NCBI GenBank assembly: GCA_016741895.1
Contig: JACVCT010000002.1
Span: 1 to 50,549, forward strand
Source of the DNA: Gemmatimonadaceae bacterium
GTDB taxonomy: Bacteria > Gemmatimonadota > Gemmatimonadetes > Gemmatimonadales > Gemmatimonadaceae
Reading direction: 5' to 3'
DNA: 50,549 nt
Shown: positions 14,979 to 35,431 of the stretch, piece after piece
How positions within the stretch are numbered: position 1 is the stretch's first letter
Layout: the number at the start of each line of letters is the position of its first letter
Position numbers and translations under genes: made by a program
The notes under the pieces: model-generated
Database searches by the model: none
What the model saw: only the letters and a program-made list of their open reading frames with translations
Told to the model about the DNA's origin: nothing

Positions 14979-16436
14979 CTACCACAGCCCGGCCTTGCCA
15001 CGCACCGACTCGATGAGCGCCTGCGGATCGTAGCCCACGCCCTGGCGGAAGACCCACTGCACGTTGCGCACGGCCGCAATGTCGGCCGCCGGATTGCCAT
15101 CGAGGACCACGAGGTCGGCCAGCTTGCCCACCTCGAGAGAACCGGTGAGCGCGCCGCGACCCAGATAGGTGGCGCCATTCAGCGTGCCGATGCGCAGCGC
15201 CTCAAGCGGGGTGAAGCCCGCTTCCACGAGCAGTTCCAGCGCACGCTGATTGGAGAAGCCCGGTACGAGACCTCCGCCGCCGGTGGGGTCGGTGCCGACG
15301 ATGAGCGTGCCACCCGCCTGCACAAAGGCGCGCTCGAAGGCCATGCCCTTGGGGAAGGCCCGCGCATAGGGCGACTGGGTATTGCGCTGTGTGGCCGCGT
15401 AGCGTCGTTCGTAGTCTTCGCGCAGCGTGGGCAGCAGCACATCGAGTCCGCGCGGCATGGGCCGGCCCGGCGTGAAGGTCTCGAAGATGGCCAGGGTGCT
15501 GGTCACCGCCACACGCTTCTCAACGAGATGCCGGAACAGCGCCTGCACGTCACTGCTTGAGGGGTCGAGCGAAGCCATGGACTGTGTGGCCGCGCCGCCG
15601 CGGGCCATGCAGCGGTCGGGCGTCTTGCCGGGCACGAAGTCGTTCATGGCAAAAAAACCATGCTCGAGATCATCGATGCCCGCGTCGGCCGCCTCGCGGT
15701 AGGTCACGCTGCACAAGTGCCCCGTGATCTTGAGCCCGCGGGCGTGCGCCTCACGCGCCGACACGCGCAGCGCGTCTCGCGAGATGTTCATGTAGGCCTT
15801 GAACGACGTGGCGCCCTGATCGGCCCAGTACGCCACCAGCTGTTTGGCGTGTGTGGTATCACGCAGCGGCACGACCTGATTGAAGCCCATGCCGGGGCCT
15901 TCGAGGTAGGGCGCGGTGGCATCGATGAACGGTCCCGGTTTCTCGCCGCGCGCGATGGCCTGCGCCACGAGAATTTCCGCCAACCCGTTCATGTTGCCGC
16001 CGGTGCGCATGCTGGTCACACCGCCCGCCAGATACAGTCGCGAGAAGCTCTCGGTGAGATTGGCGTAGGTACCCGCTCCCACCGGGTAGTAGAGGTGCTC
16101 GTGCACCATGACGAGGCCGGGGATGACCGACTTGCCGCTGAGGTCGAGCACCTGCGCACCGGCCGGCACGCTCACACCGGCAGAGGGCCCCAGCGCCGCA
16201 ATGCGGCCATCACGCACGATGATGGTATGCGCCTCGCGTGGCGCCGCGCCCGTGCCGTCAATGACGCGCACGTTGGTGAGCGCGAGCACGGCCGTATCGA
16301 AGCGCACATAGCTGCGCGTCGACGGACCCACCGGCGCGCGCTGCGCCTCCACATGCCGAGCACTCAGCCCTGAGCACGCCAGGGCCAGAACGGCGCTCAG
16401 CGCCCACGCCGACCGCGCGCTCACAGGCGCGCTCAC
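14979..16436 (-). CDS. Secreted amidohydrolase family protein
   Basis: A 485-residue amidohydrolase-superfamily (imidazolonepropionase/prolidase-like) enzyme with a signal peptide ending in HVEAQ near 32. Visible signatures: NVRVIDGTG, the metal motif HEHLYYP, the SFKAYMN lysine region, the TGHLC and DLEHGF histidines, GTDPTGGGG with the catalytic Asp, and GALTGSLEVGKLADLVVLDGNP at the C-terminus. HEH in place of HxH is still compatible with metal binding. The GTG at 16436 overlaps the upstream TGA (GTGA), and that overlap sits in a 12-bp tandem duplication. Confidence 0.87.
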   Translation of the reverse strand: MSAPVSARSAWALSAVLALACSGLSARHVEAQRAPVGPSTRSYVRFDTAVLALTNVRVIDGTGAAPREAHTIIVRDGRIAALGPSAGVSVPAGAQVLDLSGKSVIPGLVMVHEHLYYPVGAGTYANLTESFSRLYLAGGVTSMRTGGNMNGLAEILVAQAIARGEKPGPFIDATAPYLEGPGMGFNQVVPLRDTTHAKQLVAYWADQGATSFKAYMNISRDALRVSAREAHARGLKITGHLCSVTYREAADAGIDDLEHGFFAMNDFVPGKTPDRCMARGGAATQSMASLDPSSSDVQALFRHLVEKRVAVTSTLAIFETFTPGRPMPRGLDVLLPTLREDYERRYAATQRNTQSPYARAFPKGMAFERAFVQAGGTLIVGTDPTGGGGLVPGFSNQRALELLVEAGFTPLEALRIGTLNGATYLGRGALTGSLEVGKLADLVVLDGNPAADIAAVRNVQWVFRQGVGYDPQALIESVRGKAGLW

Positions 16437-16438
16437 AG
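16415..16438 (-). repeat. 12-bp tandem duplication spanning a GTGA stop/start overlap
   Basis: Two identical 12-base units (16415-16426 and 16427-16438; GTGAGCGCGC core on the minus strand) lie exactly at the junction between the isomerase-like gene and the amidohydrolase. Each copy contains a GTGA, so there are two possible in-frame GTG starts 12 bases apart; only the upstream one overlaps the preceding stop. Confidence 0.85.
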
Positions 16439-17368
16439 AGCCTTGAGCGCCGCCGCGCTGGCCGTGATGGACGCGATGGGATCGGTCGGGTTGTCGTGTT
16501 CGATGAACCAGTGCCTGAGCCCCTGACGTCGCCCTGTGGCAATGAGCGACTTGAAGTCGATGGTGCCCTTCCCCACGTCAAGCATCACGCGTTCCGGCGG
16601 CGGGCCGGCGTCCTTCACGTGCACGGCCACCACACGTCCGGCGAACCGATTCATGAGCGCCATGGGGTCCTGGCCGGCTTTCACCGCCCAGTAGAGATCG
16701 AGCTCCAGCTTGACCAGCGACGCATCGGTTTCGCTGGTGAGCACGTCGTAGCCCGTCGTGCCATCCACGGCGGCAAACTCGTAGTCGTGGTTGTGATAGC
16801 CAAACTCGAGCCCTGCCGCCCTGGCCTTTTCACCCGCCGTGTTGAGCCGCGCCGCCAGCCGCTGCCAGTTGGCGCGGGACCCGCGATACTCCATGCTCGA
16901 CGAGGGCACAATGACCAGCTTGTGCCCGATGGCCTGTGCCCGTTCGAACACCGGGCCCCAGGCGTCGTCCGTGCGCGGCAGGCCTTCATGCGCCGCCGGC
17001 GCCGTCAGACCATGGCGCGTGAGGACCTCACGCCACCAGGCGCCATCCTTGCCGAAGGGGTTGAAGAACTCCACTTCGCTGATGCCTGCCTTGGCCACCG
17101 CTGCGATCGTGCCCTCGATATCCTTGGTGAGCGCGGCACGCACCGTGTAGAGCTGCAAGCCGATGCGATCGAGACGCGCGCCCGGATACGCATTCGCATG
17201 CGCCGTCGAATGCGCCGACCGCTTGGCGGCACGGGCCAGCGACGGCAGCAGTGCGCCACCACCGATGCCCGCGGCCAGCAGACCCAGCACCTGGCGTCGT
17301 GTCCAGCCCTCGGGGCTCATGTCATCACGGCGCGAGGGGTCGGACGTGAACGGCGGCTTGTGCGACAT
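16433..17368 (-). CDS. Sugar phosphate isomerase/epimerase-like TIM-barrel protein (IolE-type) with Tat signal
   Basis: A 311-residue AP-endonuclease-2/xylose-isomerase-like TIM-barrel protein. A twin-arginine signal (WTRRQVLGLLAAG, about 22-34) and an ALARA-like end mean export. The barrel begins IGLQLYTVR and shows EVEFFNPFG, YHNHDYEF, LELDLYWAVKAGQDP, VAVHVKDAG and the GKGTIDF segment, consistent with a metal-binding IolE/KDG-like site. Substrate is unknown. ATG 17368 is preferred over longer in-frame starts, and is two bases from the GNAT stop. It belongs to the run ending at the MBL protein. Confidence 0.85.
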   Translation of the reverse strand: MSHKPPFTSDPSRRDDMSPEGWTRRQVLGLLAAGIGGGALLPSLARAAKRSAHSTAHANAYPGARLDRIGLQLYTVRAALTKDIEGTIAAVAKAGISEVEFFNPFGKDGAWWREVLTRHGLTAPAAHEGLPRTDDAWGPVFERAQAIGHKLVIVPSSSMEYRGSRANWQRLAARLNTAGEKARAAGLEFGYHNHDYEFAAVDGTTGYDVLTSETDASLVKLELDLYWAVKAGQDPMALMNRFAGRVVAVHVKDAGPPPERVMLDVGKGTIDFKSLIATGRRQGLRHWFIEHDNPTDPIASITASAAALKAL

Positions 17369-17370
17369 GG

Positions 17371-17874
17371 TCAGGCTTCTCCTCCGGCCAGTCGGGCGAG
17401 TGCCTCGCCCGTGACCCGGTAGACGGTCCACTCATCCTGCGGCCGCGCGCCGAGCGCGGTGTAGAATCCGATGGCATCCACGTTCCAGTCCAGCACCGAC
17501 CACTCGAGACGCCCGCAGCCGCGCGCCACCGCCAGCTGCGCGAGATGCTGCAGCAGGGCCTTGCCGATGCCGTGCCCACGCAGTGCCGGTCGCACGAACA
17601 GGTCTTCGAGGTAGATGCCGGGACGCGCGAGAAAGGTGCTGTAGTTGTGAAAGAACAGCGCAAACCCGGCCACCTCACCGTCCCACTCGGCCAGCACCAC
17701 CTCGGCGTATGGCCGTTCGCCAAACAGTGTGGCCTGCAGCGCCGCATCGCTGGCCTGGCACTCATGCCGCAGCTTCTCGTACTCGGCGAGCCCTTCGATG
17801 AGCTCGCGAATGACCGGCACATCGGCCGCCGTCGCGCCGCGCAGTCTGAGCCGCCCGTTCGCAGAGGCCGTCAC
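17371..17874 (-). CDS. GNAT N-acetyltransferase, SSAT/diamine acetyltransferase-like
   Basis: A 167-residue GNAT enzyme resembling spermidine/thialysine acetyltransferases: LRLRGATAADVPVIRELI at the start, EYEKLRHE, FFHNYSTFLARPGIYLEDLFV, and the acetyl-CoA loop RPALRGHGIGKALL, then LDWNVDAIGFYTALGA. I place the start at GTG 17874, which overlaps the upstream stop (GTGA) and has a GGAG Shine-Dalgarno seven bases before it inside a 12-bp repeat. A frame starting at ATG 17943 would add only repeat-encoded SHAG-type residues. Confidence 0.85.
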   Translation of the reverse strand: MTASANGRLRLRGATAADVPVIRELIEGLAEYEKLRHECQASDAALQATLFGERPYAEVVLAEWDGEVAGFALFFHNYSTFLARPGIYLEDLFVRPALRGHGIGKALLQHLAQLAVARGCGRLEWSVLDWNVDAIGFYTALGARPQDEWTVYRVTGEALARLAGGEA

Positions 17875-18743
17875 GGTGTGGCTCCCGGCGTGGCTCCCGG
17901 CGTGGCTCCTGGCGTGGCTCCTGGCAGTGCGCGATGCGTCCATTGTCCGCCGCGCCGCAGCGTGGACTCAAACTGCTTCGTGCGCACGCGCACCTCACTG
18001 GCCACGTTCACACCGCGGCGCGCTGCAATGAGTTCGCTGATGAGCGGCACACGCTCCTCGCTGCTGTCAATCGTCCACGGCGCGCCGGCCACCGGCGCCG
18101 TGAGGGAGCGCACGGGCGGCGTGCGACTGGCATGTCCCAACTCGGCGCTGCCGTCGGCCTTCATCTGGATGAGCGAATCCCCACCCACCACCGGACGACT
18201 CGAGGCGCCCAGCACCGGCAGGAACCACACCTCACTGTAGCCCTCATACAGCAGCGCCACCGGCATGAGACTGGCCACTCCACGTCCCGGACGCGGCGCC
18301 GAGAGCCCACGCGCCATCGCGCGCGCCACTGCGGCCACGGCCTGGGTGTCGATGCGCTCGCGCACCGCCACGCCGGCGCCGCGCAGGGCCCACTGCCGCT
18401 GCACCTTCACGTTCGCGCTGCCCGACGGCTGTTGCGTGAACTCCACCAGCGCGCCGCGCCACTCGTTGCCCTGCGGCACGCAGGCCACGCTCCAGGAGGG
18501 CGACATCTCACCCAATGCCCCACTGCGCGCGGCCTGCACAGTCTCCTGGTGGCACTGCATGTACTGCAGCGCACCGCGCGCACGCAGATCCCGCTCACCA
18601 AACAGCCCTTCAAAGGTGGTCGGGACAGGCAAGGCCTTGGGCATGGGCGGTTGCGCACCTTGCGCCCGCGCTTGCGAAAAGGCAGCAGTCAGCAGAAGCA
18701 GCGGAGCGAACACCACGGACAACGGCAGGCGGGACTTGGGCAC
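17871..18743 (-). CDS. Secreted protein of unknown function with C-terminal GATP repeats
   Basis: I do not recognise a family. From GTG 18743 the protein has 290 residues: a clear signal peptide (VPKSRLPLSVVF, then a leucine-rich core ending ARAQ), a mature domain with two cysteines (CHQETV and SVACVPQG regions) and a basic C-terminus ending in four GATP repeats. Longer starts exist (ATG 18848) but place about 35 unconvincing residues before the signal peptide. The gene overlaps the acetyltransferase by four bases and is probably first in the minus-strand run to 13992. Confidence 0.6.
   Translation of the reverse strand: MPKSRLPLSVVFAPLLLLTAAFSQARAQGAQPPMPKALPVPTTFEGLFGERDLRARGALQYMQCHQETVQAARSGALGEMSPSWSVACVPQGNEWRGALVEFTQQPSGSANVKVQRQWALRGAGVAVRERIDTQAVAAVARAMARGLSAPRPGRGVASLMPVALLYEGYSEVWFLPVLGASSRPVVGGDSLIQMKADGSAELGHASRTPPVRSLTAPVAGAPWTIDSSEERVPLISELIAARRGVNVASEVRVRTKQFESTLRRGGQWTHRALPGATPGATPGATPGATP
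17874..17921 (-). repeat. 12-bp tandem repeat x4 encoding GATP and carrying a GGAG ribosome-binding core
   Basis: Four consecutive units (17874-17885, 17886-17897, 17898-17909, 17910-17921). On the minus strand each reads GGAGCCACRCCR. They encode the last four GATP tetrapeptides of the upstream secreted protein and stop exactly at its TGA. Each unit contains GGAG; the last is seven bases from the GTG start of the acetyltransferase. Confidence 0.9.
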
Positions 18744-21042: not shown

Positions 21043-22596
21043 TTATCGGAAAAGCCAGAACCACGCTGCAAAGAGCGTCCGGGCGCGTGAGGTGAACGCT
21101 CGCTTGCGCCACGCGTCGGCAGCGCGCCGGAATATTTCGGACTGCGTAGGGTAGGGATGGATCGTCTTGCCGAGGGCACCCAGACCTACCCCTTGGGTGA
21201 TGGCGACCGACATCTCGCCGATCATCTCGCCCGCATGTGACGCAACCAGCGTTGCCCCGAGGATCCGGTCGCTACCGGTGGCGAGGTGTACCTTGAGGAA
21301 GCCGTGAGCGTCGCCGTCCAGGCGCGCTCGATCGTTGTCGTCAAGATCCACTCGGATGGTGTCGATCGTCTGACCGGCGGCGGCGGCCTCCTCTACAGTC
21401 AATCCCACGTGCGCCACCTCGGGGTCGGTATACGTGACCCGCGGCACCACCAACGCGCTCACGCGACCGCCGCCGATTCCGAAGAACAACGCGTTCGCCA
21501 CGACGAGCCGTGCCTGCGCATCGGCCATGTGCGTGAACTGGAGTCGCGACGACACATCACCGATGGCATACACGCGGGGATTCGTGGTACGAAGCCGATC
21601 GTCGACCGTCACGCCCTGCCGAGTGTACAGCACCTCTGCGGCTTCGAGGTTCAGACCCTCCACATTCGGTGTCCGTCCGGTCGCGACGAGTAGGCTGTCG
21701 GCATCGAGCCGCAACTCGGCCCCTTTGCCCATCACATCCACCGTGAATTGCGATCCATCGTGCGAAACCCGCTCGATGCGCGCCTCGTTGATCAGGTGTA
21801 CGCCTTCGGCCTCGAGGGAGGTGGCAACGATCGCGGCGGCGTCAGCATCCTCGCGCGGAAGCACCTGGACATCGGCGTGCACGACCGTCACCCGACTGCC
21901 GAACCGGGCAAACGACTGTGCCAGCTCGGCTCCGATGGGTCCTCCGCCAATCACCACCAGGCGGTTGGGCCGTTCGGTCGCGGAAAAAATGGACTCATTG
22001 GTGTCGTACGGAGTATCCGCGAGGCCCGGAATGGGCGGTCTCGCGGCTCGAGCGCCGGTCGCGATGATGGCCCGCCGGAAGCGCAGTGTCGCGTCTCCGA
22101 CACGCACGGTATCCTGTCCGTTGAAGGCCGCTTCGCCAAGAAACACGTCGATCCCGAGCGCCCGAAATCGCTCGACACCGTCGACATGACTGATGTCGGC
22201 ACGCAATCGCCGCAGTCTCGCCATGACCGCTCCAAAATCACCCTCACCTGTGACCGGGGGCCCGCCGAATTGTGACGTGGCTCGCCGGGCTTCAGTCCAG
22301 GCACGTGCCGCGCGAATGATCGCCTTGGAGGGCACGCACCCGAAGTTCAGGCAATCGCCGCCGAACAGGTGACGCTCGATCAACGCCACCCGCGCCCCCA
22401 GCCCCGCCGCAATCGCGGCACTCACCAGTCCTGCCGTGCCCGCGCCGATCACCACCAGATCATAGCGATCCTTGGGAACGGGAGGCGGCCACCCCTTCGG
22501 CGCGACCGTGCGCACGAGCTGAGCATTGGCGTCATCGTAAGGGAACAAGGCAACGTCAGAGGGCCAGTCGGCGGGAACTGTGTCGTGCGGCGGCAT
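21043..22596 (-). CDS. MerA-like pyridine nucleotide-disulfide oxidoreductase (FAD-dependent)
   Basis: A 517-residue class-I flavoprotein disulfide reductase. An N-terminal extension of about 45 residues precedes the FAD-binding GAGTAGLVSAAIAAGLGA. The redox pair is Cys82/Cys87 (GGDCLNFGCVPSK), the NADPH fold is GGGPIGAELAQSFARFG, and the dimer-interface HPYPTQSE (His480) supplies the base. It lacks both the N-terminal metal-binding domain and the C-terminal vicinal cysteines of true mercuric reductase, so mercury reduction is unlikely. Such MerA-like enzymes often accompany TVP38 proteins, one of which lies at 29.2 kb. A consensus ECF promoter lies 44 bases upstream. Confidence 0.88.
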   Translation of the reverse strand: MPPHDTVPADWPSDVALFPYDDANAQLVRTVAPKGWPPPVPKDRYDLVVIGAGTAGLVSAAIAAGLGARVALIERHLFGGDCLNFGCVPSKAIIRAARAWTEARRATSQFGGPPVTGEGDFGAVMARLRRLRADISHVDGVERFRALGIDVFLGEAAFNGQDTVRVGDATLRFRRAIIATGARAARPPIPGLADTPYDTNESIFSATERPNRLVVIGGGPIGAELAQSFARFGSRVTVVHADVQVLPREDADAAAIVATSLEAEGVHLINEARIERVSHDGSQFTVDVMGKGAELRLDADSLLVATGRTPNVEGLNLEAAEVLYTRQGVTVDDRLRTTNPRVYAIGDVSSRLQFTHMADAQARLVVANALFFGIGGGRVSALVVPRVTYTDPEVAHVGLTVEEAAAAGQTIDTIRVDLDDNDRARLDGDAHGFLKVHLATGSDRILGATLVASHAGEMIGEMSVAITQGVGLGALGKTIHPYPTQSEIFRRAADAWRKRAFTSRARTLFAAWFWLFR

Positions 22597-22639: not shown

Positions 22640-22666
22640 TGAGACGCGAGTCGCGTCGATGGTTCC
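22640..22666 (-). promoter_or_regulatory. ECF-type promoter of the disulfide reductase gene
   Basis: On the minus strand GGAAC (22666-22662) is separated by 15 bases from CGTCTCA (22646-22640). The spacing is identical to ten other sites in this window. The -10 block ends 44 bases before the ATG at 22596. Confidence 0.75.
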
Positions 22667-22683: not shown

Positions 22684-23448
22684 TCACTCCCCCGCGCGTG
22701 AGTCATCTACACCGAACACCAACTTCTTCAGATCTGGCGAGAGCCGGAGTGTGCGCGCGGCGCGATCCCACCACGTCAGCACCGAGCTGAAGTTGGCATT
22801 CTGCTCGGCGAACACGACAGAGTGATGCACCTTGTGCAGGTGAGGGGTGACGATAAACCCGCGGAGCACCCGATCGATGGACTCCGGCACCTCGATATTT
22901 GCGTGGTGAAATTGGACCACCGCAAAGAGCACGGTCTCATAGGCCGCGAGCTGCAGCACGCTGGCGCCGGTCAGGCCGAGCAACGGGATGCGCACCATCG
23001 ATGACAGCACGATCTCGCCCAGATGAAAACGATTGGCAGTCGTCACATCCATCTGCGTATCGGAGTGATGCAGACGATGAAAATGCCAAAGCGACGGTAT
23101 GGTGTGGTTGAGCCGATGCCAGGCGTACGTCCATGCGTCGAGCAGGAGAAGGATCAGCACCCACTGCAGCCACGAGGGACCGCCCATCCACGCTCGCACC
23201 CCGAACGCGTGCGCCTCGCTCCACGCAGCGACGGCCGTCCACGCCCCAAGAAAGCCAAAGCGCACGACCAGACCGTTCAGCACCCCCAACGTGATGTTGC
23301 GGGCGCCGTGGCGTACGCGTTCACGAGTGGCCCGCGCGCCGTTGAACAGGGGCAGAAAGGGGTGCACCGTCTCCCACATCGCCAGCAAGACGAGCACCAC
23401 CAGTGCAAGAGGAAGCCGGACGACGAGCACCGCATCCGCGAAAGACAC
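22684..23448 (-). CDS. Sterol desaturase / fatty acid hydroxylase family membrane protein
   Basis: A 254-residue membrane di-iron enzyme. The eight-histidine pattern is present: HRLNH, HRLHH, a HHAN segment and HLHKVHH, embedded in four hydrophobic stretches. Family members hydroxylate or desaturate sterols, carotenoids, alkylglycerols or fatty acids; bacterial substrates are mostly unknown. It is the last gene of the TonB receptor-sigma-anti-sigma operon, eight bases after the anti-sigma stop, so its lipid modification is probably part of the sigma response. Confidence 0.87.
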   Translation of the reverse strand: MSFADAVLVVRLPLALVVLVLLAMWETVHPFLPLFNGARATRERVRHGARNITLGVLNGLVVRFGFLGAWTAVAAWSEAHAFGVRAWMGGPSWLQWVLILLLLDAWTYAWHRLNHTIPSLWHFHRLHHSDTQMDVTTANRFHLGEIVLSSMVRIPLLGLTGASVLQLAAYETVLFAVVQFHHANIEVPESIDRVLRGFIVTPHLHKVHHSVVFAEQNANFSSVLTWWDRAARTLRLSPDLKKLVFGVDDSRAGE

Positions 23449-23456
23449 CCTGCCGC

Positions 23457-23750
23457 CTACCCTTGGATGGCGTCGGCATCCCGCAGCGCCAGACGAATAC
23501 GCTCACGCAGCGCATCCGTGTCTCCGGCCTCCACGCGCGCACCAGCCACGGCGCGCTCGAACGCGCGTCGGAACTCGGCCTGCGGCCGGCACCGCTGGCA
23601 GTGATCCAGATGCATGTGGATAGCCTGCATGGTATCCGGCGTCAGCTGCTGGTCCAGGTAATCCCACAGCCGGCGCATGACGCTTTCGCAGTCGAGCATG
23701 CCATCCATCATGCTGTCGGCGCCTTCACTGTTGCTCACTGAAGAATTCAT
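23457..23750 (-). CDS. Anti-sigma factor with zinc-binding ZAS motif
   Basis: A 97-residue zf-HC2-type anti-sigma factor. Cys21 plus the ZAS motif His47-x3-Cys51-x2-Cys54 (HLDHCQRC) provide the zinc site seen in RsrA/ChrR-like proteins. There is no membrane segment, so it is a soluble cytoplasmic anti-sigma, as in redox-sensing pairs. The ATG at 23750 overlaps the sigma stop (ATGA), the usual arrangement for stoichiometric translation. Redox release of the sigma is inferred from the motif and target genes. Confidence 0.85.
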   Translation of the reverse strand: MNSSVSNSEGADSMMDGMLDCESVMRRLWDYLDQQLTPDTMQAIHMHLDHCQRCRPQAEFRRAFERAVAGARVEAGDTDALRERIRLALRDADAIQG

Positions 23751-24331
23751 ACTTGCGGCGCTCCGAGTGGTGTCGAACGACGAGCGATACCGAGGTCTTC
23801 CGCGTACGCGGTCAGTTCCTCCTGAAGCATGCGGCGAGCGCGAAAGAGCCGGGAGCGCACTGTCCCGATCGGCACGCCAAGAATCTGAGCAACCGACTCG
23901 TAAGTCTGATCGTGCCAATCCACCAGAACGGCCACCTCTCGATACACGGCGGGCAAGGCGTACATACTGCGCCGTACCGCCTCTCGCATGTCTCGACGCT
24001 CGAACTCGTCAGTCAAGGTCATCCCGTGCTGCATGGTGTAAGCGGCCGCCGCGAGCGACTCGAGCTCAGGGCTGTCCGTTGCCACCTGTCGGTCCGCACG
24101 CTGATCGAGCCGGTAGAAGCGATGTCGGGCGATCGTGAACAGCCAGGCCTTTGCATCGGTACCGGCCTGAAACTGCTGCCACGACCGCTGCGCGGTCAGA
24201 TAGGTATCCTGCACGAGATCCTCGGCCTCGCTCCGATCACGTGTAAGTGAGAGGGCAAAACGCATCACATCCGGAAGCCAGCGCATGGCCTCCTCGTCAA
24301 ATTTCGGGTGGGTACCGGTTTCGTCGGTCAT
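23747..24331 (-). CDS. ECF RNA polymerase sigma factor
   Basis: A 194-residue sigma-70-family ECF factor. Region 2 spans about 15-85 (VMRFALSLTRDRSEAEDLVQDTYLTA and AKAWLFTIARHRFYR) and region 4 spans about 118-170 (ALPAVYREVAVLVDWHDQTYESVAQIL, then GVPIGTVRSRLFRARRML as the -35-reading helix-turn-helix). There is no C-terminal regulatory domain. ATG 24331 overlaps the CDP-alcohol transferase stop (ATGA), and its stop overlaps the anti-sigma start. It is third in an operon headed by a promoter of the class found at ten other places nearby. Confidence 0.93.
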   Translation of the reverse strand: MTDETGTHPKFDEEAMRWLPDVMRFALSLTRDRSEAEDLVQDTYLTAQRSWQQFQAGTDAKAWLFTIARHRFYRLDQRADRQVATDSPELESLAAAAYTMQHGMTLTDEFERRDMREAVRRSMYALPAVYREVAVLVDWHDQTYESVAQILGVPIGTVRSRLFRARRMLQEELTAYAEDLGIARRSTPLGAPQV

Positions 24332-24930
24332 GGTCGCAAAATACGGTGCGCGAGCAGTGTTCGCTGCCACATCGTGGCAATGAGGAGGACCACCCACACG
24401 AGCAGAATGCCGCGACTGTATGACGGCATCACGGCCACCGCCGCGTACACGATGGTGGTTTCGCCGGCCTCGGCGAGACCGGGAGTGAACTGAATCGAAC
24501 GGTTGCCCCCCAGCTGCCGGTCGGCCCGCTCGGCAAGCGACGAAAGCGCCAAGGTCGTCGTGATGGCCACAACGTAGCCCGCAAGTACCAGCAGCCAGAG
24601 CATGCGGTCGCCGGGCATGGCATAGGCAAACGCACACGCCATAGCCGCATACGCGAGCATGTCGAAGGTGAGATCGAGATAGCCGCCGAACAGGGAGGAC
24701 CTTTTGGCATAGCGCGCCAACATGCCATCGTATCCGTCGGCGAGACGGCTCAAGAGCCACACGAGCACCCCCGGCACGAGCGCACCGCCGGCCACCAATG
24801 CCGTGGCCGTGAACGCCAGCAGCAGTCCACTCCACGAGAGCGCGTTCGGCGTCACGCCGAGGCGATGCAGAAGAGGCACCGGCGCGGCGGCGTATCGCGC
24901 CAGCCATCGCCGAAAGGGCTCGTCGATCAT
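24328..24930 (-). CDS. CDP-alcohol phosphatidyltransferase family protein
   Basis: A 200-residue integral membrane enzyme that transfers a phosphatidyl-type group from CDP-alcohol to a second alcohol. The full catalytic signature is exact: Asp65-x2-Asp68-Gly69-x2-Ala72-Arg73-x8-Gly82-x3-Asp86-x3-Asp90. About six hydrophobic helices follow the family pattern. The acceptor cannot be read from sequence. It overlaps the sigma gene by four bases and starts nine bases after the TonB receptor stop, tying phospholipid head-group change to the sigma response. Confidence 0.9.
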   Translation of the reverse strand: MIDEPFRRWLARYAAAPVPLLHRLGVTPNALSWSGLLLAFTATALVAGGALVPGVLVWLLSRLADGYDGMLARYAKRSSLFGGYLDLTFDMLAYAAMACAFAYAMPGDRMLWLLVLAGYVVAITTTLALSSLAERADRQLGGNRSIQFTPGLAEAGETTIVYAAVAVMPSYSRGILLVWVVLLIATMWQRTLLAHRILRP

Positions 24931-24939
24931 GCACGGAGG

Positions 24940-27693
24940 TCAAGGAGTGGGCCTGGCGGTACTGCTGCCGAAGACATAGCGCAGCGACAGCTGAAATTGG
25001 CGCGGCGGCGCGGCCGCGAACAGTTCGATCGCGTCGCCGGGGCGTCCGAACTGTGTACGGCTACCGCCACCGCCCGTCCCGTTTGCGTAGCCGCCCCACA
25101 CGAGCGAGTTGAGGGCGTTGAATATGTCGAGCCGCACTTCGAGTCCGGGCGCGCGCGCGCGCAGCGGCCGCGCGATGGCGCTCAGCCCGAGCGTCACGCT
25201 GCCCGGTAACCGCTCGGCGTTGCGGGCGACACCGGGAAAGCGATCGCCGTTTCCAATGAAGCCATTACCGCGAATGGGGCCACTGCCCAGCAGGTCATAG
25301 CGTGCAATGCTCCCGTCAATTCCGACCGCCCCCGCGAGGCGGTTCACCGGCACGCCTGTCTGTGCGTCGGCAATCACGCCGAAAGTAATGCTGCGCAGGG
25401 GCGTCAGCGAAGTCCGTATCGTGACGCGATGGCGCCGGTCGTTGTTTGCATCAGCCCACTCGTCGCTCGTACATGCGGTGCCGGTGACCGCATCCACACG
25501 ATCCGTCGAAAAGCAGTTGGCCTGCGTCGCCGAGAAGTTGATGTCCTCGGTGTTGTTTTGCGCGCGCGACCACACCCAGTTGCCGTCGATCGTCCAGCGC
25601 TCGGACAACGCACGCCGGACCGCCACGTAGAGTGCCTGATAGCGGGCGGAACCGCCGGACTGCGCTGTGCTCACCCGACGAAAGCCGGTGGACGCTGGTG
25701 CGGTGAGGCGATCGGTGTCCCCAGGGCAGTCGAAGGCGCTGGCGCAAGTGAGCGGCACGGTGTCGCCCGGCGTGAGTCGCGCTCCGATCGGGTTGAGATC
25801 GGCGAGCCATGGCAGGTTGCGGGTTTCACTCCACACCACGTCAGCGCTCGCCGACCAGCGGGTGCCGAACACGCGCTGATAGCCCAGCGTCGACTGCCAG
25901 CTCATGGGCTGCTCGAGCCCCAACGCAAAAGTGCGAAAGACCTCCCGCGGTACCGACTGAATCTCCGACGCCCCGATCTGCGACGGCAGCTTGCCACCGC
26001 GGAACGCCGGTGCCGATGTCCCCTCGTATGTGAGCAAGGCGTTGCCGGCGGCGCCCAGTTGAATCGCGTCGGAATAGATCGCATAGGGGAATCGCCCCGC
26101 ATAGCGGCCAACACTGGCCCGTACGACATCACGCGCACTGCGCTGCCACCTCGCGGCCAGTCGCGGCTGAATGTTGTCAAGGTCGGGTGTACTTTCGCCG
26201 CGCGACGTGAGATCGTCGTAGTCCCAGCGCAGCCCGGCCGTTACGCTGAGGGCGCTCGATGGCGTCCACACATCCTCGACGAAGGCACCGTACATTGTCT
26301 GCGTCAGGTTCACCTGCTGGGGGCGCGCATCGATCGTGTACGACAGCACGTGGGCATTCGCCGGCACATCGCGAATGGAAAGCGGGCGCCCGGCCGGTGC
26401 GCTGATGCTTCCGTCGTTCACCACCGTGTAGGCCCCGTTGGGATTGGTACTCGCCGCGGCCAAGGCGAATCGTGCGTGAATCACGTCGGCGCCGGCGCGG
26501 ACTCTGTGCGACGACGAGAGTTCACGCTCGAAGACGTCGCGTACCTGGAACTGCTTCTCGCGTTCGTCGAATACGAAGTTGCTCGAGCCTACCACCGCCT
26601 GGACCGCGCGATCCGGTGACACGATGGTGACCTGCGGCTGCGAAAAGTCACTGCGCACCGGCGGGAAGTACCAGTGATAGGTGCCGTACTGCAACGAAAC
26701 GGTATTCGACCCGCGCCCATCGGTGCGCGCGCTACGATGCGTCACGGCGCTCAAGGTACCGATACGCCGCGTGCGGATATCGGCCTCCGGGGTCACGACG
26801 CCGCTGCCATTGCCGGCGCGATCGACGCCGCTGCCTGCGAGGCGCAGCGTGGTGGTTTGGGACGGCGACCATCCGTGATCGAGCCGCAGATAGCCCTTCA
26901 CCGTCTGCCGCCGCTCGGTGCCGAGGAACTGCGCCTGCGCCGTCGATCCGATCCGGTCTTCCTGCTCGTCGGTGTATTCGAGTGCAGACGCCGCGAGCGT
27001 ACGCACGTTGCGCGACGCCGACCGGTAGGAGCCGCCGGCCTGCATGCGCTCGAACCCTTCCTGTCGGCGATCGAGCGCCTGCGGCACCGTCCCGAAAGTC
27101 ACGGGCAGCCGCGCGTCGAGCGGGCGGCCGGGACGCTGGTACAGGAATACGTCGCCGCCGCGCGCGTCGCTGCCGGGCAGCGAAGTCACGTTGACCACAC
27201 CATCTGGAGTGCGGCCGAATTCGGCCGTGTAGCCGTTCACGAGCGCGTCCATGCGCGCGATGGCCCCCAGCGGGATATCCACGCGAGGCCCGCCAAGAAA
27301 CCCTTCGTTGTTGTCGAGTCCATCGAGCAGATACTGCGAATACAGCGCATTGCCGCCGTTGAACGACAGGCGCGGGGCGTCTCCGAAGAACCCGGTAGCC
27401 GGCGTGATACCCGGAATGTTGTACAGGAGGCTGATGGGATCACGCGCGTCCGTGGGCAGCGTCGTGAGCTCCCGCGCCTCGATCGCACCGCCAAGCCCCG
27501 ACGCCCGCCGGTCGAGCAGCGCGCGCGGCCGATCCGCGGTGACCCGCACCGAGTCCAACAGCGCCCGGGCGCGGGCCAGCGAATCACGCGCCGCCGAGTC
27601 GGGGTGAACCTGTGCGCGGGCTGTCCCGGTGCTGGTGACCAGCGCCGCTCCAAGGAGAAACGGCCGAAGATTGCGGGAGAGGAAACCAATCAT
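24940..27693 (-). CDS. TonB-dependent outer-membrane receptor
   Basis: A 917-residue receptor beginning at ATG 27693 with a signal peptide (about 1-30, ending ARAQ). A plug domain follows (about 70-190, with DPISLLYNIPGI, LDGLDNNEGFLGGPRVDIPLGAIARMD and TAEFGRTPDGVVNV). The rest is a 22-strand-type barrel ending in LSLRYVFGSS. There is no CarboxypepD_reg domain and no N-terminal signalling domain of the FecA type, so it probably does not signal directly to the linked sigma. It heads the five-gene operon. Ligand unknown. Confidence 0.88.
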   Translation of the reverse strand: MIGFLSRNLRPFLLGAALVTSTGTARAQVHPDSAARDSLARARALLDSVRVTADRPRALLDRRASGLGGAIEARELTTLPTDARDPISLLYNIPGITPATGFFGDAPRLSFNGGNALYSQYLLDGLDNNEGFLGGPRVDIPLGAIARMDALVNGYTAEFGRTPDGVVNVTSLPGSDARGGDVFLYQRPGRPLDARLPVTFGTVPQALDRRQEGFERMQAGGSYRSASRNVRTLAASALEYTDEQEDRIGSTAQAQFLGTERRQTVKGYLRLDHGWSPSQTTTLRLAGSGVDRAGNGSGVVTPEADIRTRRIGTLSAVTHRSARTDGRGSNTVSLQYGTYHWYFPPVRSDFSQPQVTIVSPDRAVQAVVGSSNFVFDEREKQFQVRDVFERELSSSHRVRAGADVIHARFALAAASTNPNGAYTVVNDGSISAPAGRPLSIRDVPANAHVLSYTIDARPQQVNLTQTMYGAFVEDVWTPSSALSVTAGLRWDYDDLTSRGESTPDLDNIQPRLAARWQRSARDVVRASVGRYAGRFPYAIYSDAIQLGAAGNALLTYEGTSAPAFRGGKLPSQIGASEIQSVPREVFRTFALGLEQPMSWQSTLGYQRVFGTRWSASADVVWSETRNLPWLADLNPIGARLTPGDTVPLTCASAFDCPGDTDRLTAPASTGFRRVSTAQSGGSARYQALYVAVRRALSERWTIDGNWVWSRAQNNTEDINFSATQANCFSTDRVDAVTGTACTSDEWADANNDRRHRVTIRTSLTPLRSITFGVIADAQTGVPVNRLAGAVGIDGSIARYDLLGSGPIRGNGFIGNGDRFPGVARNAERLPGSVTLGLSAIARPLRARAPGLEVRLDIFNALNSLVWGGYANGTGGGGSRTQFGRPGDAIELFAAAPPRQFQLSLRYVFGSSTARPTP

Positions 27694-27739
27694 GGACCCG
27701 GCGTCTTGCTGGAGTGCGAGGAACCTTCGATCGCGGCAG

Positions 27740-27766
27740 TAAGACGGGCCGCTGTCCACAAGTTCC
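27740..27766 (-). promoter_or_regulatory. ECF-type promoter of the TonB receptor-sigma-anti-sigma operon
   Basis: Minus strand: GGAAC (27766-27762, extended GGAACTT) then 15 bases then CGTCTTA (27746-27740). It is 47 bases upstream of the receptor ATG at 27693. Same spacing and blocks as the promoters of thioredoxin and other genes nearby, so the sigma is probably auto-regulated. Confidence 0.78.
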
Positions 27767-27794: not shown

Positions 27795-29189
27795 ATGCCT
27801 GCTGCCCTGGATGTGATCGCCTTTCTCGGTCTGGTCGGTACGCTTGCCCTCGTCGGCTGGCGGCGCACCACCTCGTCCTCCTCGTTTACGGTAGCCTCAC
27901 GCGACCTTGGCCTACTACCGCTTGTGGCCACCCTGGTGATGACGGAGTTCAACACCAGTACGCTCATGGCCTTCGCCGCCGCCGGCTACTCCGCCGGGCC
28001 GGTGGCGCTTATGCTCCCCGCCGTGCTCCTCGTGGGCCTTACGTTCTACACGCTCACGGTGGCCCGCGCGTGGAAGAAGTTCGATCGCCTCTCGGTGGCC
28101 GAACTCTTTGCCGTGCGGTACTCGCCCGCCGTTGGACGCACGGCCTCGGCGCTACTCTTGCTCGCCATGACCGGGTTTACGGCCACGTATGTGAAGTCAC
28201 TCGCGCTGCTGTTTTCCCCACTCGTACCCGCGGCCGTCCCCATGCCGCTGTTCGCACTGGTGCTCACCCTGGTTGTACTCGGCGCCGTGCTGCCGGGCGG
28301 CCTGCTGTCGGTGGTGCGCGCCGACGTGGTCGGCTTCACCGCAACCATGGTGTTGCTGCCGTTGCTGCTGTGGTTCGGCGTGAATGCCGCCGCCGTCAAG
28401 GGCGGCCTTGCGAGCGTGTTCACCGAAGCGCAGCGCACCTTCGATCCCGTCGTGCAGTGGAACGACCCCGCACTATCGTTGCGTTTCGTGCTCACCCTCA
28501 TGGTCCTCACCTGCTTCACCTACATCGCCGCGCCCTGGTACGGGCAGAAGATCTTTGCCGCGCGCAGCCCGCGCGTGGCAGTGCGTGCGGTGGCCATCAG
28601 TGCGGCACTTGTGTTCGTGCTGTACGGCGCGGTGGTGCTCGCGGCCGCGTATCTGCGCGTGGACGACCCCTCGCTCGCTGACGCTCAGCTTGCCGTGCCC
28701 ACCATGATCATTGGCTGGCTGCCGACTGGTCTCCGCGGACTGGGGCTGGCCGTACTCTTCGGGGCAGCACTAACCACGCTCGCCGGTGTGTGGAGCGCAA
28801 TGGCCACCATGCTCGCCACCGACTTCGGCACGAAATCTTGGGGCACCGTGCGCGCGCAGCGCCGGTTGCTGGCGCTGCTTGCGGCATCCAGTTGGCTCGG
28901 CGCCATCCTTCTCGTCGAACGCATTCTCGACCGGCTCATCCTCGCCAATATTCCCATCGCCGCGCTGTCATTCGCGCTGCTCGCGGGGTTCCACTGGCCT
29001 CGTGCGAACACTGCCGCTGCATGGGCCAGCATGGCGGTCGGCGTGGTGTGGGGTATCGCCTGTTACGTCGTGGTGGGTGAAGCCGGTGGATACACCTGGC
29101 CGTGGGCCATGTACGGCATTCCTCTCATTCTTCTCACCGGCGCATGCGTCACGCTGCTGACCTCGCGCCCTCTCGCACCACGCACATGA
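27795..29189 (+). CDS. Sodium:solute symporter (SSS) family transporter
   Basis: A 464-residue protein with about 13 hydrophobic segments. The LeuT-fold SSS pattern is visible: an N-terminal SFTVASRDLGLLPLVATLVMTEFNTSTLM with the sodium-site region, WKKFDRLSVAELFAVRYSP, and YIAAPWYGQKIFAAR. Substrate unknown. Its ATG at 27795 is divergent from the TonB receptor gene. Only a half-match to the ECF promoter (GGAAC at 27720 without CGTC) lies upstream. Its TGA overlaps the next ATG (ATGA), so it is coupled to the TVP38-DUF547 gene. Confidence 0.87.
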   Translation: MPAALDVIAFLGLVGTLALVGWRRTTSSSSFTVASRDLGLLPLVATLVMTEFNTSTLMAFAAAGYSAGPVALMLPAVLLVGLTFYTLTVARAWKKFDRLSVAELFAVRYSPAVGRTASALLLLAMTGFTATYVKSLALLFSPLVPAAVPMPLFALVLTLVVLGAVLPGGLLSVVRADVVGFTATMVLLPLLLWFGVNAAAVKGGLASVFTEAQRTFDPVVQWNDPALSLRFVLTLMVLTCFTYIAAPWYGQKIFAARSPRVAVRAVAISAALVFVLYGAVVLAAAYLRVDDPSLADAQLAVPTMIIGWLPTGLRGLGLAVLFGAALTTLAGVWSAMATMLATDFGTKSWGTVRAQRRLLALLAASSWLGAILLVERILDRLILANIPIAALSFALLAGFHWPRANTAAAWASMAVGVVWGIACYVVVGEAGGYTWPWAMYGIPLILLTGACVTLLTSRPLAPRT

Positions 29190-30640
29190 CCGAATCCGTA
29201 CTCCGCAGCCCCTGGTTGCGCCTCCTGCTCCTCCTCCTCTTGCTGGTGGGCGCCTGGCTGGTCGCGCGGGCTACGGGCGTGCTCGATCAGCTGCAGCTCG
29301 ACCGCCTACCCGTGCTCATTAGGGAGTTCCGACAGTTCGCGTGGGCGGCGCCAGCATTCGTCGCTGCCTACGCCATCATTGCCACCGTTGGCCTGCCGGC
29401 CACTCCGTTGACGCTGATGGGCGGCGCTCTTTTCGGACCGTGGCTCGGCACGCTGTTCAACTGGCTGGGCGCGAGCCTCGGCGCCACGGGGGCGTTTCTG
29501 TTGGCCCGCGCCCTCGGTCGCGATGCTGTGCGAAAGCTGCTCGGCTCGCGCGCCGGCTCACTCGATGCGCTTGCGGGCGACCACGCGTTCGGTTCGTTGC
29601 TGCGCCTGCGACTGTTGCCACTCATTCCGTTCAATGGCCTCAACTTCGGGGCCGGTCTCGCCGGCGTACGTCCCGGCACCTACGTGCTAGCGACCGCGCT
29701 CGGCATCATTCCCGGTACGGCGATCTACACGTATTTCGCCGACGCGTTGCTCGCCGGAGTCGATGGTGCACGCGAGGCGGCGCTGCAGCGCGTCGTCATC
29801 GGCGGCGTGCTGCTCGTGCTGCTGTCGTTCCTGCCCGCCATCGCGAAGCGCGCCGGGTGGCTGTCCGCCGCGGCACTTTTGCTCATCGCCTCGCCGTCGA
29901 TCATTCCGACGCACGCACAGCCGGTACCGCCACGTGTCGAGGTCGTCGATCACGCGCCCTTCGACCGCATGCTGCAGCAGTGGGTCACCGACGGCATGGT
30001 CGAGTACGATGCGTTCGCACGCTCGCGCGAGTTCGCGCAATATCTCGCGTCGCTCGCCGCCGCTCAGCCTCAGCGCATGTCACGTGCCGATCAGCTCGCG
30101 TACTGGATCAACGTGTACAACGCGTACACCATTCAGCTGATCAACAGCCGCAAGGAGCGGCGATCCATTCGCGATATCAACAAGCGGTTTGGGATCACGT
30201 TCAAGAGCCCATGGGCCGAACCCATCGTGAAGGCGGGTGGCCGCACCCTCACGCTCGACGACGTGGAGCACAAGATCATCCGCCCCACGTACACCGACCC
30301 GCGCATTCATGTTGCGCTCGTATGCGCAGCCAAGGGATGTCCGCCGCTGCGCGGTGAGGCGTATGTGGGCAGTCGGCTCGATGCGCAGCTCGACGAGCAG
30401 GCTCGCCGATTCCTCGCGCAGACTCCGAAAAATCGCGTCGACATCGCCACGCGCACTGTGTACGGCTCCCCCATCTTCACGTGGTATCGCGAAGATTTCG
30501 GCGGTACGCTGGCCGGTGTGGGGGCCTTCTGGGCGCGCCACCTCCCTGATGGCCCCGCACGCGAGCTGGTGCGCGGTGGTGCGTTCACGTGGGTGGATAC
30601 CGACTACGACTGGACGCTCAATCTCCGTTTGGCCAGGTAG
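29186..30640 (+). CDS. TVP38/TMEM64 (SNARE-associated) - DUF547 fusion protein
   Basis: A 484-residue two-domain protein. Residues 1-about 235 are a TVP38/TMEM64 membrane domain with GALFGPWLGTLFNWLGASLGA and the RLRLLPLIPFNGLNFGAGL motif. A hydrophobic segment ending in THAQ near 260 looks like an old signal peptide. The remainder is DUF547 (AYWINVYNAYTIQLI, DVEHKIIRP, RIHVALVCAAKGCPPLR), placed in the periplasm. These two families usually occur as separate adjacent genes, so this is a fusion. It is translationally coupled to the SSS transporter. Confidence 0.87.
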   Translation: MTESVLRSPWLRLLLLLLLLVGAWLVARATGVLDQLQLDRLPVLIREFRQFAWAAPAFVAAYAIIATVGLPATPLTLMGGALFGPWLGTLFNWLGASLGATGAFLLARALGRDAVRKLLGSRAGSLDALAGDHAFGSLLRLRLLPLIPFNGLNFGAGLAGVRPGTYVLATALGIIPGTAIYTYFADALLAGVDGAREAALQRVVIGGVLLVLLSFLPAIAKRAGWLSAAALLLIASPSIIPTHAQPVPPRVEVVDHAPFDRMLQQWVTDGMVEYDAFARSREFAQYLASLAAAQPQRMSRADQLAYWINVYNAYTIQLINSRKERRSIRDINKRFGITFKSPWAEPIVKAGGRTLTLDDVEHKIIRPTYTDPRIHVALVCAAKGCPPLRGEAYVGSRLDAQLDEQARRFLAQTPKNRVDIATRTVYGSPIFTWYREDFGGTLAGVGAFWARHLPDGPARELVRGGAFTWVDTDYDWTLNLRLAR

Positions 30641-31851: not shown

Positions 31852-31878
31852 CAAGACGTCACACGGTCGATTGGTTCC
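31852..31878 (-). promoter_or_regulatory. ECF-type promoter of the YceI gene
   Basis: Minus strand: GGAAC (31878-31874), 15-base spacer, CGTCTTG (31858-31852). Lies partly within the 3' end of the TlpA-like gene and 70 bases before the YceI ATG at 31782. Confidence 0.72.
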
Positions 31879-32436: not shown

Positions 32437-32463
32437 CAAGACGGCGGTTCGAGCGTTCGTTCC
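32437..32463 (-). promoter_or_regulatory. ECF-type promoter of the TlpA-like gene
   Basis: Minus strand: GGAAC (32463-32459), 15-base spacer, CGTCTTG (32443-32437). Its -35 is fused to that of the divergent DUF3179 promoter, forming a 12-bp palindrome at 32459-32470. Confidence 0.75.
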
Positions 32464-32465: not shown

Positions 32466-32492
32466 GGAACCTTCGTGGCGCGCCGCGTCTTG
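32466..32492 (+). promoter_or_regulatory. ECF-type promoter of the DUF3179 operon
   Basis: GGAAC (32466-32470), 15-base spacer, CGTCTTG (32486-32492), 47 bases before the ATG at 32540. Back to back with the TlpA promoter. Confidence 0.75.
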
Positions 32493-32539: not shown

Positions 32540-33640
32540 ATGACGCCCGACCGTTTCCTTCGTGCTGGCTCCCCGATCAGTTCACTTGTAGGTGTGCTCT
32601 CCGTCGTGGCGTTGTCCAGTTGCTCCGGACTCAACACGGAAGCCAGTCTCGACCCGTCAGAGTGCACCGTTCCGCGCCAATTCATTGCCGACGGTGGCCC
32701 GGGAAAGGATGGTATCCCCGCGCTGACGAATCCGGCGATGGTGTCTCCTACAAATCCGGCCGCGCAGTATCTTCGGCACGACGACCGCATCATCGGGCTG
32801 CAGATCGGCGATGAGTTCATTGCCGTCCCGCTCAATATCGGCTGGTGGCACGAAGTGGTGAACCTGAATCGCGGCAGCCTGCGATTGTCGATCACTCACT
32901 GTCCACTCACCGGATCAAGTCTGGTGTTCAATCGGTCGGCGGTGGACGGCGCGGAGTTCGGAGTCTCCGGCCTGTTGTTCATGAATTATCTCATGTTGTA
33001 TGACCGGGCTGAACCGTCGTCGCTGTGGCCGCAAATGTCGCGCGGGGCACGCTGCGGAAGTCGCGCGGGTACCACGCTCCCGATGTTCCCATCGGTGGAG
33101 ATGTCGTGGCTAGGCTGGAGAACACTCCATCCCCAGACGGTGGTGGTGTCCGAGAACACCGGACATGTGCGGAACTATCGGTCGTACCCGTACGGCGACT
33201 ACGCGCGGGAAGACAACGCCGGATTGCTGGCACCAGCGCCAGCGATCGACGCGCGTCGGCCACCGAAGGAGCGCGTTCTTGGCATCGTTCTCGAGGAACG
33301 GGGTAGCCTGGCGCTGCCCTTCGGCGCCATGCGCACGCGCGGTGCTCGTGCAAGCATTCCCGTGGTCGTAGGTGGCGAATCACTCGTGGTCCTGTGGGAT
33401 GGAGCCCGTGAGACCGCCGCAGCGTTCGCGCCGCGAGTCGACTCACAGCAGCTGTCGTTGCGCGTCGTGGGCGAGTCGTGGCGTGATGACGAAACAGGAT
33501 CAGCGTGGACAGTCGATGGTATCGCGACCGATGGTCCGCTGGCTGGGCAGCGCTTGACGCAACCGGCTGGCAGCTTCGTTGCCTATTGGTTTGCCTGGGC
33601 CGCCTTCTATCCCGATGCCGCGCTCTGGATCGCCGAATGA
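32540..33640 (+). CDS. DUF3179 domain-containing lipoprotein
   Basis: A 366-residue lipoprotein: the lipobox LSSC (Cys28) follows a short signal peptide. The DUF3179 domain covers most of the protein, with DGGPGKDGIPALTNP, LRHDDRIIGLQIGDEFIAVPLNIGWWHEVVN and the hallmark THCPLTGSSLVFNR. The function of DUF3179 is unknown; the Cys in the THCPLT motif suggests metal or redox chemistry. ATG 32540 follows AGGAG at four bases. Its stop overlaps the ATG of the barrel gene (ATGA). It heads a three-gene operon under an ECF promoter. Confidence 0.9.
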   Translation: MTPDRFLRAGSPISSLVGVLSVVALSSCSGLNTEASLDPSECTVPRQFIADGGPGKDGIPALTNPAMVSPTNPAAQYLRHDDRIIGLQIGDEFIAVPLNIGWWHEVVNLNRGSLRLSITHCPLTGSSLVFNRSAVDGAEFGVSGLLFMNYLMLYDRAEPSSLWPQMSRGARCGSRAGTTLPMFPSVEMSWLGWRTLHPQTVVVSENTGHVRNYRSYPYGDYAREDNAGLLAPAPAIDARRPPKERVLGIVLEERGSLALPFGAMRTRGARASIPVVVGGESLVVLWDGARETAAAFAPRVDSQQLSLRVVGESWRDDETGSAWTVDGIATDGPLAGQRLTQPAGSFVAYWFAWAAFYPDAALWIAE

Positions 33641-34568
33641 TGCATCGACTCGGCAACTGCGTGCATGCTGCGATGCTGATGCTCACGAGCATCGCGCTGG
33701 CCACGGCGCTCCCCGCGCAGGCCATCTGTAGCGCACCGCATTCCTCTCCGACACTTGCCGGTGGCGGGAGCATCGGGGCTCTACCCACCGGTGCTGGCTG
33801 GATCATGGTCTCCGGACTCCGCCAGCGGTCGGGCAGCATCTTCAATTCCCAGGGGGATCGGCAGCCATCGCTGGCCGATGGTTCGTTCCAGAGCACCTCG
33901 CTCTATTTGTCTACGGGTGTTGGGCTCGCCGATGGCGTGGATGCCTGGATGCAGCTCCCGGTGCATCGTATGCACTATGAAGACGACGGTGGCACCCGCG
34001 ATCGGGCCGGCATAGGCGATGCGCGCGTCGCATTGCGCCTGTCCCCCGCGTTGCTCGGCGCGACGCTGCCGGTTGCCCTCCGCGTCGGCATGAAGGTACC
34101 CGGGAGTACGTTCCCGCTCGATGCCAAAGTCATTCCGCTCACCGAGGGGCAAACCGATTTCGAGACCAGCCTAGAAAGTGGCCGGCTCTTTCGCGATGCG
34201 GTGTACGTACTGGGATGGGTCGGTTACCGCTGGCGAACCGAGAATCGAGACGCGGCGCGCAAGCCGGGAAATAAAGCATTCATGCATGTTGCCACCGGCA
34301 CGGCAATCGGTGGGTACGCCTCGAGTTTGGAGCCGATCTGTTGTTCGGAGCGCCACCGCGCCAGCTCGGATTCGCGGTACCGGCGTCACGCCGGCGGTTG
34401 CTCCAGTTCAGCCCCACCGTCACGCGCAAGACCGGTCCAGGCGACCTCGAATTCACCACGGTGTTGCCGGTAGTCGGGCGCAATCTGCCGACCGGCGCTG
34501 GCATCAGCGTGGGGTACCGCCTCGGCTGGGGGGTGCCACACGGAACTTCGGATTCGCCCTCCCGATGA
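33637..34568 (+). pseudogene. Frameshifted outer-membrane beta-barrel (transporter-like) protein
   Basis: The first 220 codons from ATG 33637 encode a signal peptide and alternating beta-strand sequence (GSIGALPTGAGWIMVSGLR, YLSTGVGLADGVDAWMQLPV, GIGDARVALRLSPALL) of the phenol-pathway transporter/barrel type. Near 34295-34311 the frame degrades into Arg/Ser-rich nonsense running to 34473, while the frame offset by one missing (or two extra) bases continues sensibly (LEFGADLLFGAPP, VGYRLGWG) to TGA 34566-34568. That stop overlaps the next ATG (ATGA), as at the other junctions of this operon. Real mutation, programmed event or sequencing error cannot be separated here. Confidence 0.72.
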
Positions 34569-35431
34569 GTCGCGCTGCGCGCACGGCATTCGTGTTCGCA
34601 GGTGGAGGGGTGCTCGGTGCGGTGGAGGTCGGCATGTTGCGTGCGCTCCTGGAAACGGCTCACGTTCCCGATCTGGTGGTTGGCGCGTCTGCAGGAGCGA
34701 TCAACGCCGCATACTTTGCGCTCGATCCAACGCTCGAAGGAATTCAGCAGCTCGGCATGCTCTGGACTCAGTGTTCGACGCGTACGGTATTTCCGTTCTC
34801 GACCTACCGGATTGCACGGGCGTTGCTTGGCATCGAATCATCGCTGGTCAGCCCTATCGCGCTACGTCGGTTGCTGGAGCGACACTTCGGAGATCGGAAT
34901 GTTGCTGACGCAGTCGTGCCCTGCCACATCGTTGCCGCCGATGCGTTGACCGGCATGCCGGTAACACCTTCTCACGGACGCATCGTCGACGCCGTCTTGG
35001 CCAGTGCGGCAATCCCCATGGTGTTTCCGGCCGTACCCACACTCGATGGCCTGTTGATTGACGGCGGCGTTGCGAGCAATACGCCCATCGAGGTCGCGAG
35101 AATCCTCGGCGCTGAACGCATCGTGGTGCTGCCCACCGGATTCACTTGTACGTTGCGCGATCCTCCGCGGCATCCGATCTCGAGCCTCTTGCATACCTGG
35201 TCATTGATGATTGCCCGGCAACTAGCGGACGAGACCCGGCGGCTGACGCGCGATACTGTCGTTCGCATCGTGCCGCCTCTTTGCCCCCTTCCCGTCAGAG
35301 CGTACGATTTCTCGCAGTCGGCAACGCTGATCGCACAGGCGTACGAGCAGACATTACAGTGGCTGCATAATGGAGGCCTGGACACCGCGCCGGATGTCCG
35401 ACGGCTGCTGCCGCACTCCCATGCGGGGTGA
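34565..35431 (+). CDS. Patatin-like phospholipase family protein
   Basis: A 288-residue patatin/RssA-like serine lipase. The oxyanion loop GGGVLG (13-18), nucleophile motif GASAG (Ser42) and the catalytic dyad Asp166 in LLIDGGVASNTP are all present, so activity is expected. There is no signal peptide, so it likely acts on the inner face of the membrane. Its ATG overlaps the stop of the barrel gene in its restored frame. In this operon it adds a lipid-hydrolysing function to the sigma response. It is convergent with the Rieske fusion gene. Confidence 0.9.
   Translation: MSRAARTAFVFAGGGVLGAVEVGMLRALLETAHVPDLVVGASAGAINAAYFALDPTLEGIQQLGMLWTQCSTRTVFPFSTYRIARALLGIESSLVSPIALRRLLERHFGDRNVADAVVPCHIVAADALTGMPVTPSHGRIVDAVLASAAIPMVFPAVPTLDGLLIDGGVASNTPIEVARILGAERIVVLPTGFTCTLRDPPRHPISSLLHTWSLMIARQLADETRRLTRDTVVRIVPPLCPLPVRAYDFSQSATLIAQAYEQTLQWLHNGGLDTAPDVRRLLPHSHAG

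Follow-up and report, generated by a model that had tools for sequence, protein, structure and literature searches.

Our analysis of a 50,549-nucleotide stretch of DNA from a Gemmatimonadaceae bacterium (assembly GCA_016741895.1, 4.24 Mb; contig JACVCT010000002.1, positions 1-50,549 of the forward strand), referred to below as the window, suggests that the extracytoplasmic function (ECF) sigma factor encoded in it together with a zinc anti-sigma factor is probably a thiol- or soft-metal-stress sigma factor resembling SigR/RsrA, which captured an older module of an outer-membrane receptor, a CDP-alcohol phosphatidyltransferase (PT), a sodium symporter and a VTT protein. This proposal accounts jointly for the predicted promoter motif, the CHCC anti-sigma factor, the candidate target genes and the sister loci, whereas a sigma factor devoted to lipid remodelling would account for fewer of them.

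The sigma factor operon and its neighbours

The operon comprises five genes, all on the minus strand, in the order receptor, PT, ECF sigma factor, anti-sigma factor and FA_hydroxylase, with junctions of 9 bp, ATGA, ATGA and 8 bp. This is the arrangement that a first-pass annotation, made from the sequence alone, had described. The ATGA overlaps between PT and sigma and between sigma and anti-sigma are also seen in the relatives L040, L041 and L227. A sixth gene, overlooked in that annotation, encodes an FAD oxidoreductase; it follows 87 bp downstream of the FA_hydroxylase gene and is preceded by a separate copy of the predicted promoter.

24940-27693, minus strand: TonB-dependent-receptor-like outer membrane protein (Pfam OMP_b-brl_4, 1.4e-37; Plug slightly below the cut-off)
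24328-24930, minus strand: PT (Pfam PF01066, over the cut-off)
23747-24331, minus strand: ECF sigma factor (Pfam regions 2 and 4)
23457-23750, minus strand: soluble CHCC zinc anti-sigma factor (Pfam zf-HC2)
22684-23448, minus strand: FA_hydroxylase of the sterol desaturase superfamily, with histidine motifs (Pfam PF04116, 9.1e-23)
21043-22596, minus strand: FAD-containing disulfide oxidoreductase, the sixth gene (NF004991 over the cut-off; GGDCLNFGC present)
27795-29189, plus strand: sodium:solute symporter, divergent from the operon (Pfam SSF; synteny in relatives)
29186-30640, plus strand: VTT (DedA-type) and DUF547 protein, module partner (Pfam; synteny in relatives)

The N-terminal region of the receptor contains, as read by eye, a TonB-box-like sequence (DSVRVTADRP). 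Additional sequence that resembles, again by eye, a domain of carboxypeptidase-regulatory type precedes the aligned receptor start in the sigma-less relatives L087-L092 and is absent from the window receptor. The catalytic motif of the PT (D-x2-DG-x2-AR-x8-G-x3-D-x3-D) is complete, and it is intact in all 12 relatives checked. Closer functional assignments were rejected for three of the enzymes: the PT stays under the NCBIfam equivalog cut-offs for archaetidylinositol-phosphate and phosphatidylinositol-phosphate synthases (70.4 of 180 and 47.6 of 170 bits, respectively), the FA_hydroxylase does not reach the NF052566 cut-off for the ornithine lipid hydroxylase OlsE (61.3 of 475 bits), and the FAD oxidoreductase is without the C-terminal CC of the mercuric reductase MerA and scores 394 of 454.45 bits for TIGR02053.

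Resemblance to SigR/RsrA

In SigR/RsrA of Streptomyces and SigH/RshA of other Actinobacteria a thiol-stress sigma factor is paired with a CHCC zinc anti-sigma factor. The closest solved relative of the window anti-sigma profile is RsrA and that of the sigma profile is SigH of M. tuberculosis. The CHCC motif of the anti-sigma factor (C21, H47, C51 and C54) is invariant in 10 orthologs and includes an N-terminal ligand cysteine, the equivalent of which is required for redox sensing by RsrA (PMC4960319). Further likenesses to SigR/RsrA are that the anti-sigma factor is soluble, that it is encoded next to its sigma factor with an ATGA overlap, that a thioredoxin gene is among the predicted targets and that the sigma factor is predicted to control itself. 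Unlike the actinobacterial system, the window anti-sigma factor has three cysteines only, all of them within the CHCC motif, a bacillithiol gene is present in the genome, and an outer-membrane receptor and a PT belong to the operon. The main text of a Gemmatimonas phototrophica transcriptome paper makes no mention of sigma factors or ECF (PMC11406998).

A TonB-type receptor in one operon with an ECF sigma factor and an anti-sigma factor is also reminiscent of FecA/FecR/FecI, in which case the signal would pass through the receptor by cell-surface signalling. Here, however, no STN signalling domain was matched by Pfam in the receptor, and no membrane segment was found in the anti-sigma factor, in which the highest 19-residue Kyte-Doolittle mean is 0.07. 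As the first-pass annotation had rightly pointed out, both features of the FecA/FecR type are thus missing, and we regard signalling of this kind as highly improbable.

Predicted promoters and candidate regulon

There are 9 copies of the motif GGAAC-N15-CGTC in the window. Across 300 dinucleotide shuffles the average was 0.73 copies and the highest count 4, and with the spacer set to any other length between 5 and 29 the window yields 0-2 matches. In pattern searches of the whole 4.24-Mb assembly, GGAAC-N15-CGTCTY was matched 11 times, 9 of them on the window contig, with 2 matches for the reversed-pattern control. The two strict matches outside the window (contigs C103:4130-4155 and C239:9589-9614 of G000) have close counterparts in G181, a genome without a close sigma ortholog, and may be due to chance. 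The looser form GGAAC-N16-GTCTY gives 12 sites in the window, of which 11 precede a gene on the same strand, the thioredoxin gene at 39560 counted. The remaining one, at 37603 on the minus strand, lies antisense within the BrxC gene and is probably a chance match. The following sites, all detected by the pattern, are predicted to be promoters of the sigma factor.

27741-27766, minus strand: predicted promoter of the receptor operon, GGAAC-N15-CGTCTT (also backed by the shuffle counts; kept in relatives)
22641-22666, minus strand: predicted promoter before the FAD oxidoreductase (present in L227 too)
31853-31878, minus strand: predicted promoter before YceI (31782-31171)
32438-32463, minus strand: predicted promoter before a TlpA-like thioredoxin (32383-31859)
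32466-32491, plus strand: predicted promoter before DUF3179 (32594-33640), with a patatin further on at 34562-35431
36590-36615, plus strand: predicted promoter before a small open reading frame (36625-36846)
36907-36932, plus strand: predicted promoter before an open reading frame at 37000-37437, followed by the bacilliredoxin BrxC (37588-37956)
39482-39507, plus strand: predicted promoter before the thioredoxin TrxA (39560-39904, WCGPC)
40624-40649, minus strand: predicted promoter (GTCTC form) before an AhpC/TSA peroxiredoxin (40556-39936)
40659-40684, plus strand: predicted promoter (GTCTC form) before DsbD (40767-42956)
43191-43216, plus strand: predicted promoter before a YHS protein (43290-43778), followed by a CMD protein (43838-44428); a similar site precedes a YHS gene in L127

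The promoter-matched genes are chiefly redox genes, namely those for TrxA, the TlpA-like thioredoxin, DsbD, the peroxiredoxin, the YHS protein and the FAD oxidoreductase. The product of the small open reading frame at 36625-36846 resembles, by eye only, the YbdD/YjiX family.

Sister sigma factors

Sister sigma pairs adjoin genes for MerA, MerR, BrxC, CMD and thioredoxin proteins. In L043 the pair stands beside genes for MerA (with the C-terminal CC) and MerR and beside MerT- and MerP-like genes, and in L046 beside those for MerA and MerR. Sites of the same spacing are found in L043, L045, L046 and L047 before such genes or, in L047, before the sigma gene itself. The sigma pair and mer genes of L043 (G065, 1-18001) share their locus with recombinase- and integrase-like genes, suggesting that the pair could be mobile. 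A single origin of the receptor- and PT-linked sigma factors is not shown by the sigma tree, in which the supported clade of the window also holds the mer-linked L043 and L044.

The sister pairs beside mer genes in L043 and L046 would also agree with a signal restricted to mercury or some other soft metal. The zinc-cysteine anti-sigma factor would then sense metal, and the thiol genes would serve in metal resistance. We consider this restriction unlikely: no mer operon was seen among the window genes examined, the FAD oxidoreductase of the window is without MerA's C-terminal CC, and the targets predicted in the window are general thiol-disulfide proteins.

The same loci bear on the suggestion of the first-pass annotation that the sigma factor remodels head groups via the PT and acyl or sterol-like lipids via the FA_hydroxylase. 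The patatin and YceI genes would then be additional lipid or envelope members of the regulon. The complete catalytic motif of the PT, the presence of the FA_hydroxylase within the operon and the patatin homologues near the sister sigma factors of L045 and L046 all speak for it, YceI does have a site of its own, and the patatin gene lies downstream of the DUF3179 site. Lipid remodelling as the main function is nevertheless rather improbable, given that the FA_hydroxylase is an accessory member which L042 and L127, two of the six operons with the sigma factor, lack, that redox proteins make up most of the promoter-matched genes, that the anti-sigma factor is of the RsrA-type CHCC kind, and that sister sigma factors without PT or receptor adjoin mer, bacilliredoxin and other thiol genes. 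What can be kept of the suggestion is that PT, VTT and patatin possibly form a lipid arm of the sigma factor's targets and that effects on lipids or the envelope are conceivable.

Conservation of the site and of the linkage

A close ortholog of the sigma factor is present in 5 of 30 genomes of the genus, some of which are incomplete assemblies. It stands directly downstream of the PT in all five, and the linkage is also conserved in one more distant member of the family. Eight further genomes of the 30 have the PT without a close sigma ortholog; in seven of these the PT adjoins the receptor, the contig of the eighth (L221) being too short to judge. More distant relatives (L087-L091) have receptor, PT, symporter, VTT and often the FAD oxidoreductase, all without the sigma factor. 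Because the sigma gene always stands directly after the PT (5/5), yet eight genomes have a PT without it, we read the linkage as capture of an existing module by the sigma factor.

All six sigma-bearing operons found, namely those of the window, L040, L041, L042, L127 and L227, have the site ahead of the receptor, with slight changes of its -10 half in the five outside the window. The site before the FAD oxidoreductase is kept as well in L227, related sites precede the sigma, YHS and VTT-DUF547 genes in L127, and one site faces the symporter in L042. For the sigma-less operons L228, L229 and L230, and likewise for L088, L089 and L090, the pattern search reported no site; the sigma-less L087, L091 and L092 have few pattern matches, none at the receptor start, and a stricter promoter pattern had zero matches in the sigma-less genomes G074 and G172. 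We therefore consider control of the operon by its own sigma factor, which the first-pass annotation had asserted, to be well supported, though inferred, since sigma-bearing operons retain a site ahead of the receptor, none was found there in sigma-less ones, and the sigma factor is linked to the PT.

The linkage could also be incidental, if the sigma pair had inserted downstream of the PT and merely borrowed the receptor promoter region, leaving receptor and PT outside its response. That receptor and PT without sigma are common, and that the L043 pair among its recombinase- and integrase-like genes may move, is in keeping with this. Against it stand the retention of the receptor site in six diverged operons and of the FAD oxidoreductase site in two, the sites before VTT-DUF547 in L127 and facing the symporter in L042, and the related sigma pair that sits between VTT and receptor in L131, so that we give this explanation little weight.

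The module itself has partial counterparts elsewhere. DedA proteins of COG0398 are found fused to pyridine nucleotide-disulfide oxidoreductases (PMC10127716), and a VTT protein and an FAD disulfide oxidoreductase are likewise recurrent neighbours here, although the two are encoded separately and grouped with receptor, PT and symporter. L127, L089 and L228 carry a second, more distant FAD oxidoreductase (44-48% identity) between symporter and VTT-DUF547. L093 and L131 share receptor and PT with the window but combine them with a nearby ABC transporter whose binding protein is of the PRK11622 type, whereas the window carries the sodium symporter in its place; the transporter of L094 is similar. 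We take PRK11622 to be YnjB of E. coli, presumably in an operon with the PT-like YnjF. A literature search on ynjB/ynjF and on the gene families of the module together found no paper on such a module.

Proposed mechanism and implications

The gene layout, the promoter footprint, the CHCC motif, the protein families of the predicted targets and the conserved linkage can be read directly from the sequence; the release mechanism, its signal, transcription from the predicted sites and the import and product of the module are what we infer in the following model. As long as the cell is at rest, the sigma factor would be retained in the cytoplasm by the CHCC zinc anti-sigma factor. Under disulfide stress, or when a thiol-binding metal is present, the zinc-cysteine site may be disrupted and the sigma factor freed, which would read promoters of the form GGAAC-N15-CGTCTY and so switch on its own operon, the FAD oxidoreductase and the nearby thioredoxin-type genes. 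Genes for uptake and membrane lipids would in this way be linked to the cell's response to thiol damage. The older transport and membrane-lipid module would consist of receptor, PT, symporter, VTT-DUF547 and FAD oxidoreductase, and the sigma factor would have captured it in part of the Gemmatimonadaceae.

Several points weigh against this model. Unlike SigR/RsrA, both proteins stay under the curated cut-offs, the anti-sigma factor with 44.6 of 62.5 bits for TIGR03988 (RsrA) and the sigma factor with 104.6 of 251.55 bits for TIGR02947 (SigH_actino), and we therefore propose that the pair works like SigR/RsrA, not that it is one. BrxC and patatin are tied to the regulon solely by their position downstream of another promoter-matched gene. 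The majority of the site-bearing thiol genes lie in the 31-45 kb stretch of this genome, and a tblastn search of the more distant flanks in G039 and G079 did not recover them. Finally, a benefit from receptor and PT under thiol stress is not obvious.

This genome and the 20 relatives searched alongside all have a bacillithiol gene of the BshC family, which also agrees with the thiol-stress reading. More tentatively, the Gemmatimonadaceae might possess a bacillithiol-linked system of the SigR/RsrA kind in which outer-membrane uptake and CDP-alcohol lipid synthesis are directly under thiol-stress control, the receptor-PT module itself acting in the response. If the proposed role of the sigma factor is correct, thiol sensing of the SigR/RsrA type would be extended to the Gemmatimonadota, a promoter sequence for thiol stress would be predicted for the group, and the otherwise uncharacterised receptor-PT-symporter-VTT module would be connected with a stress that is directly testable.

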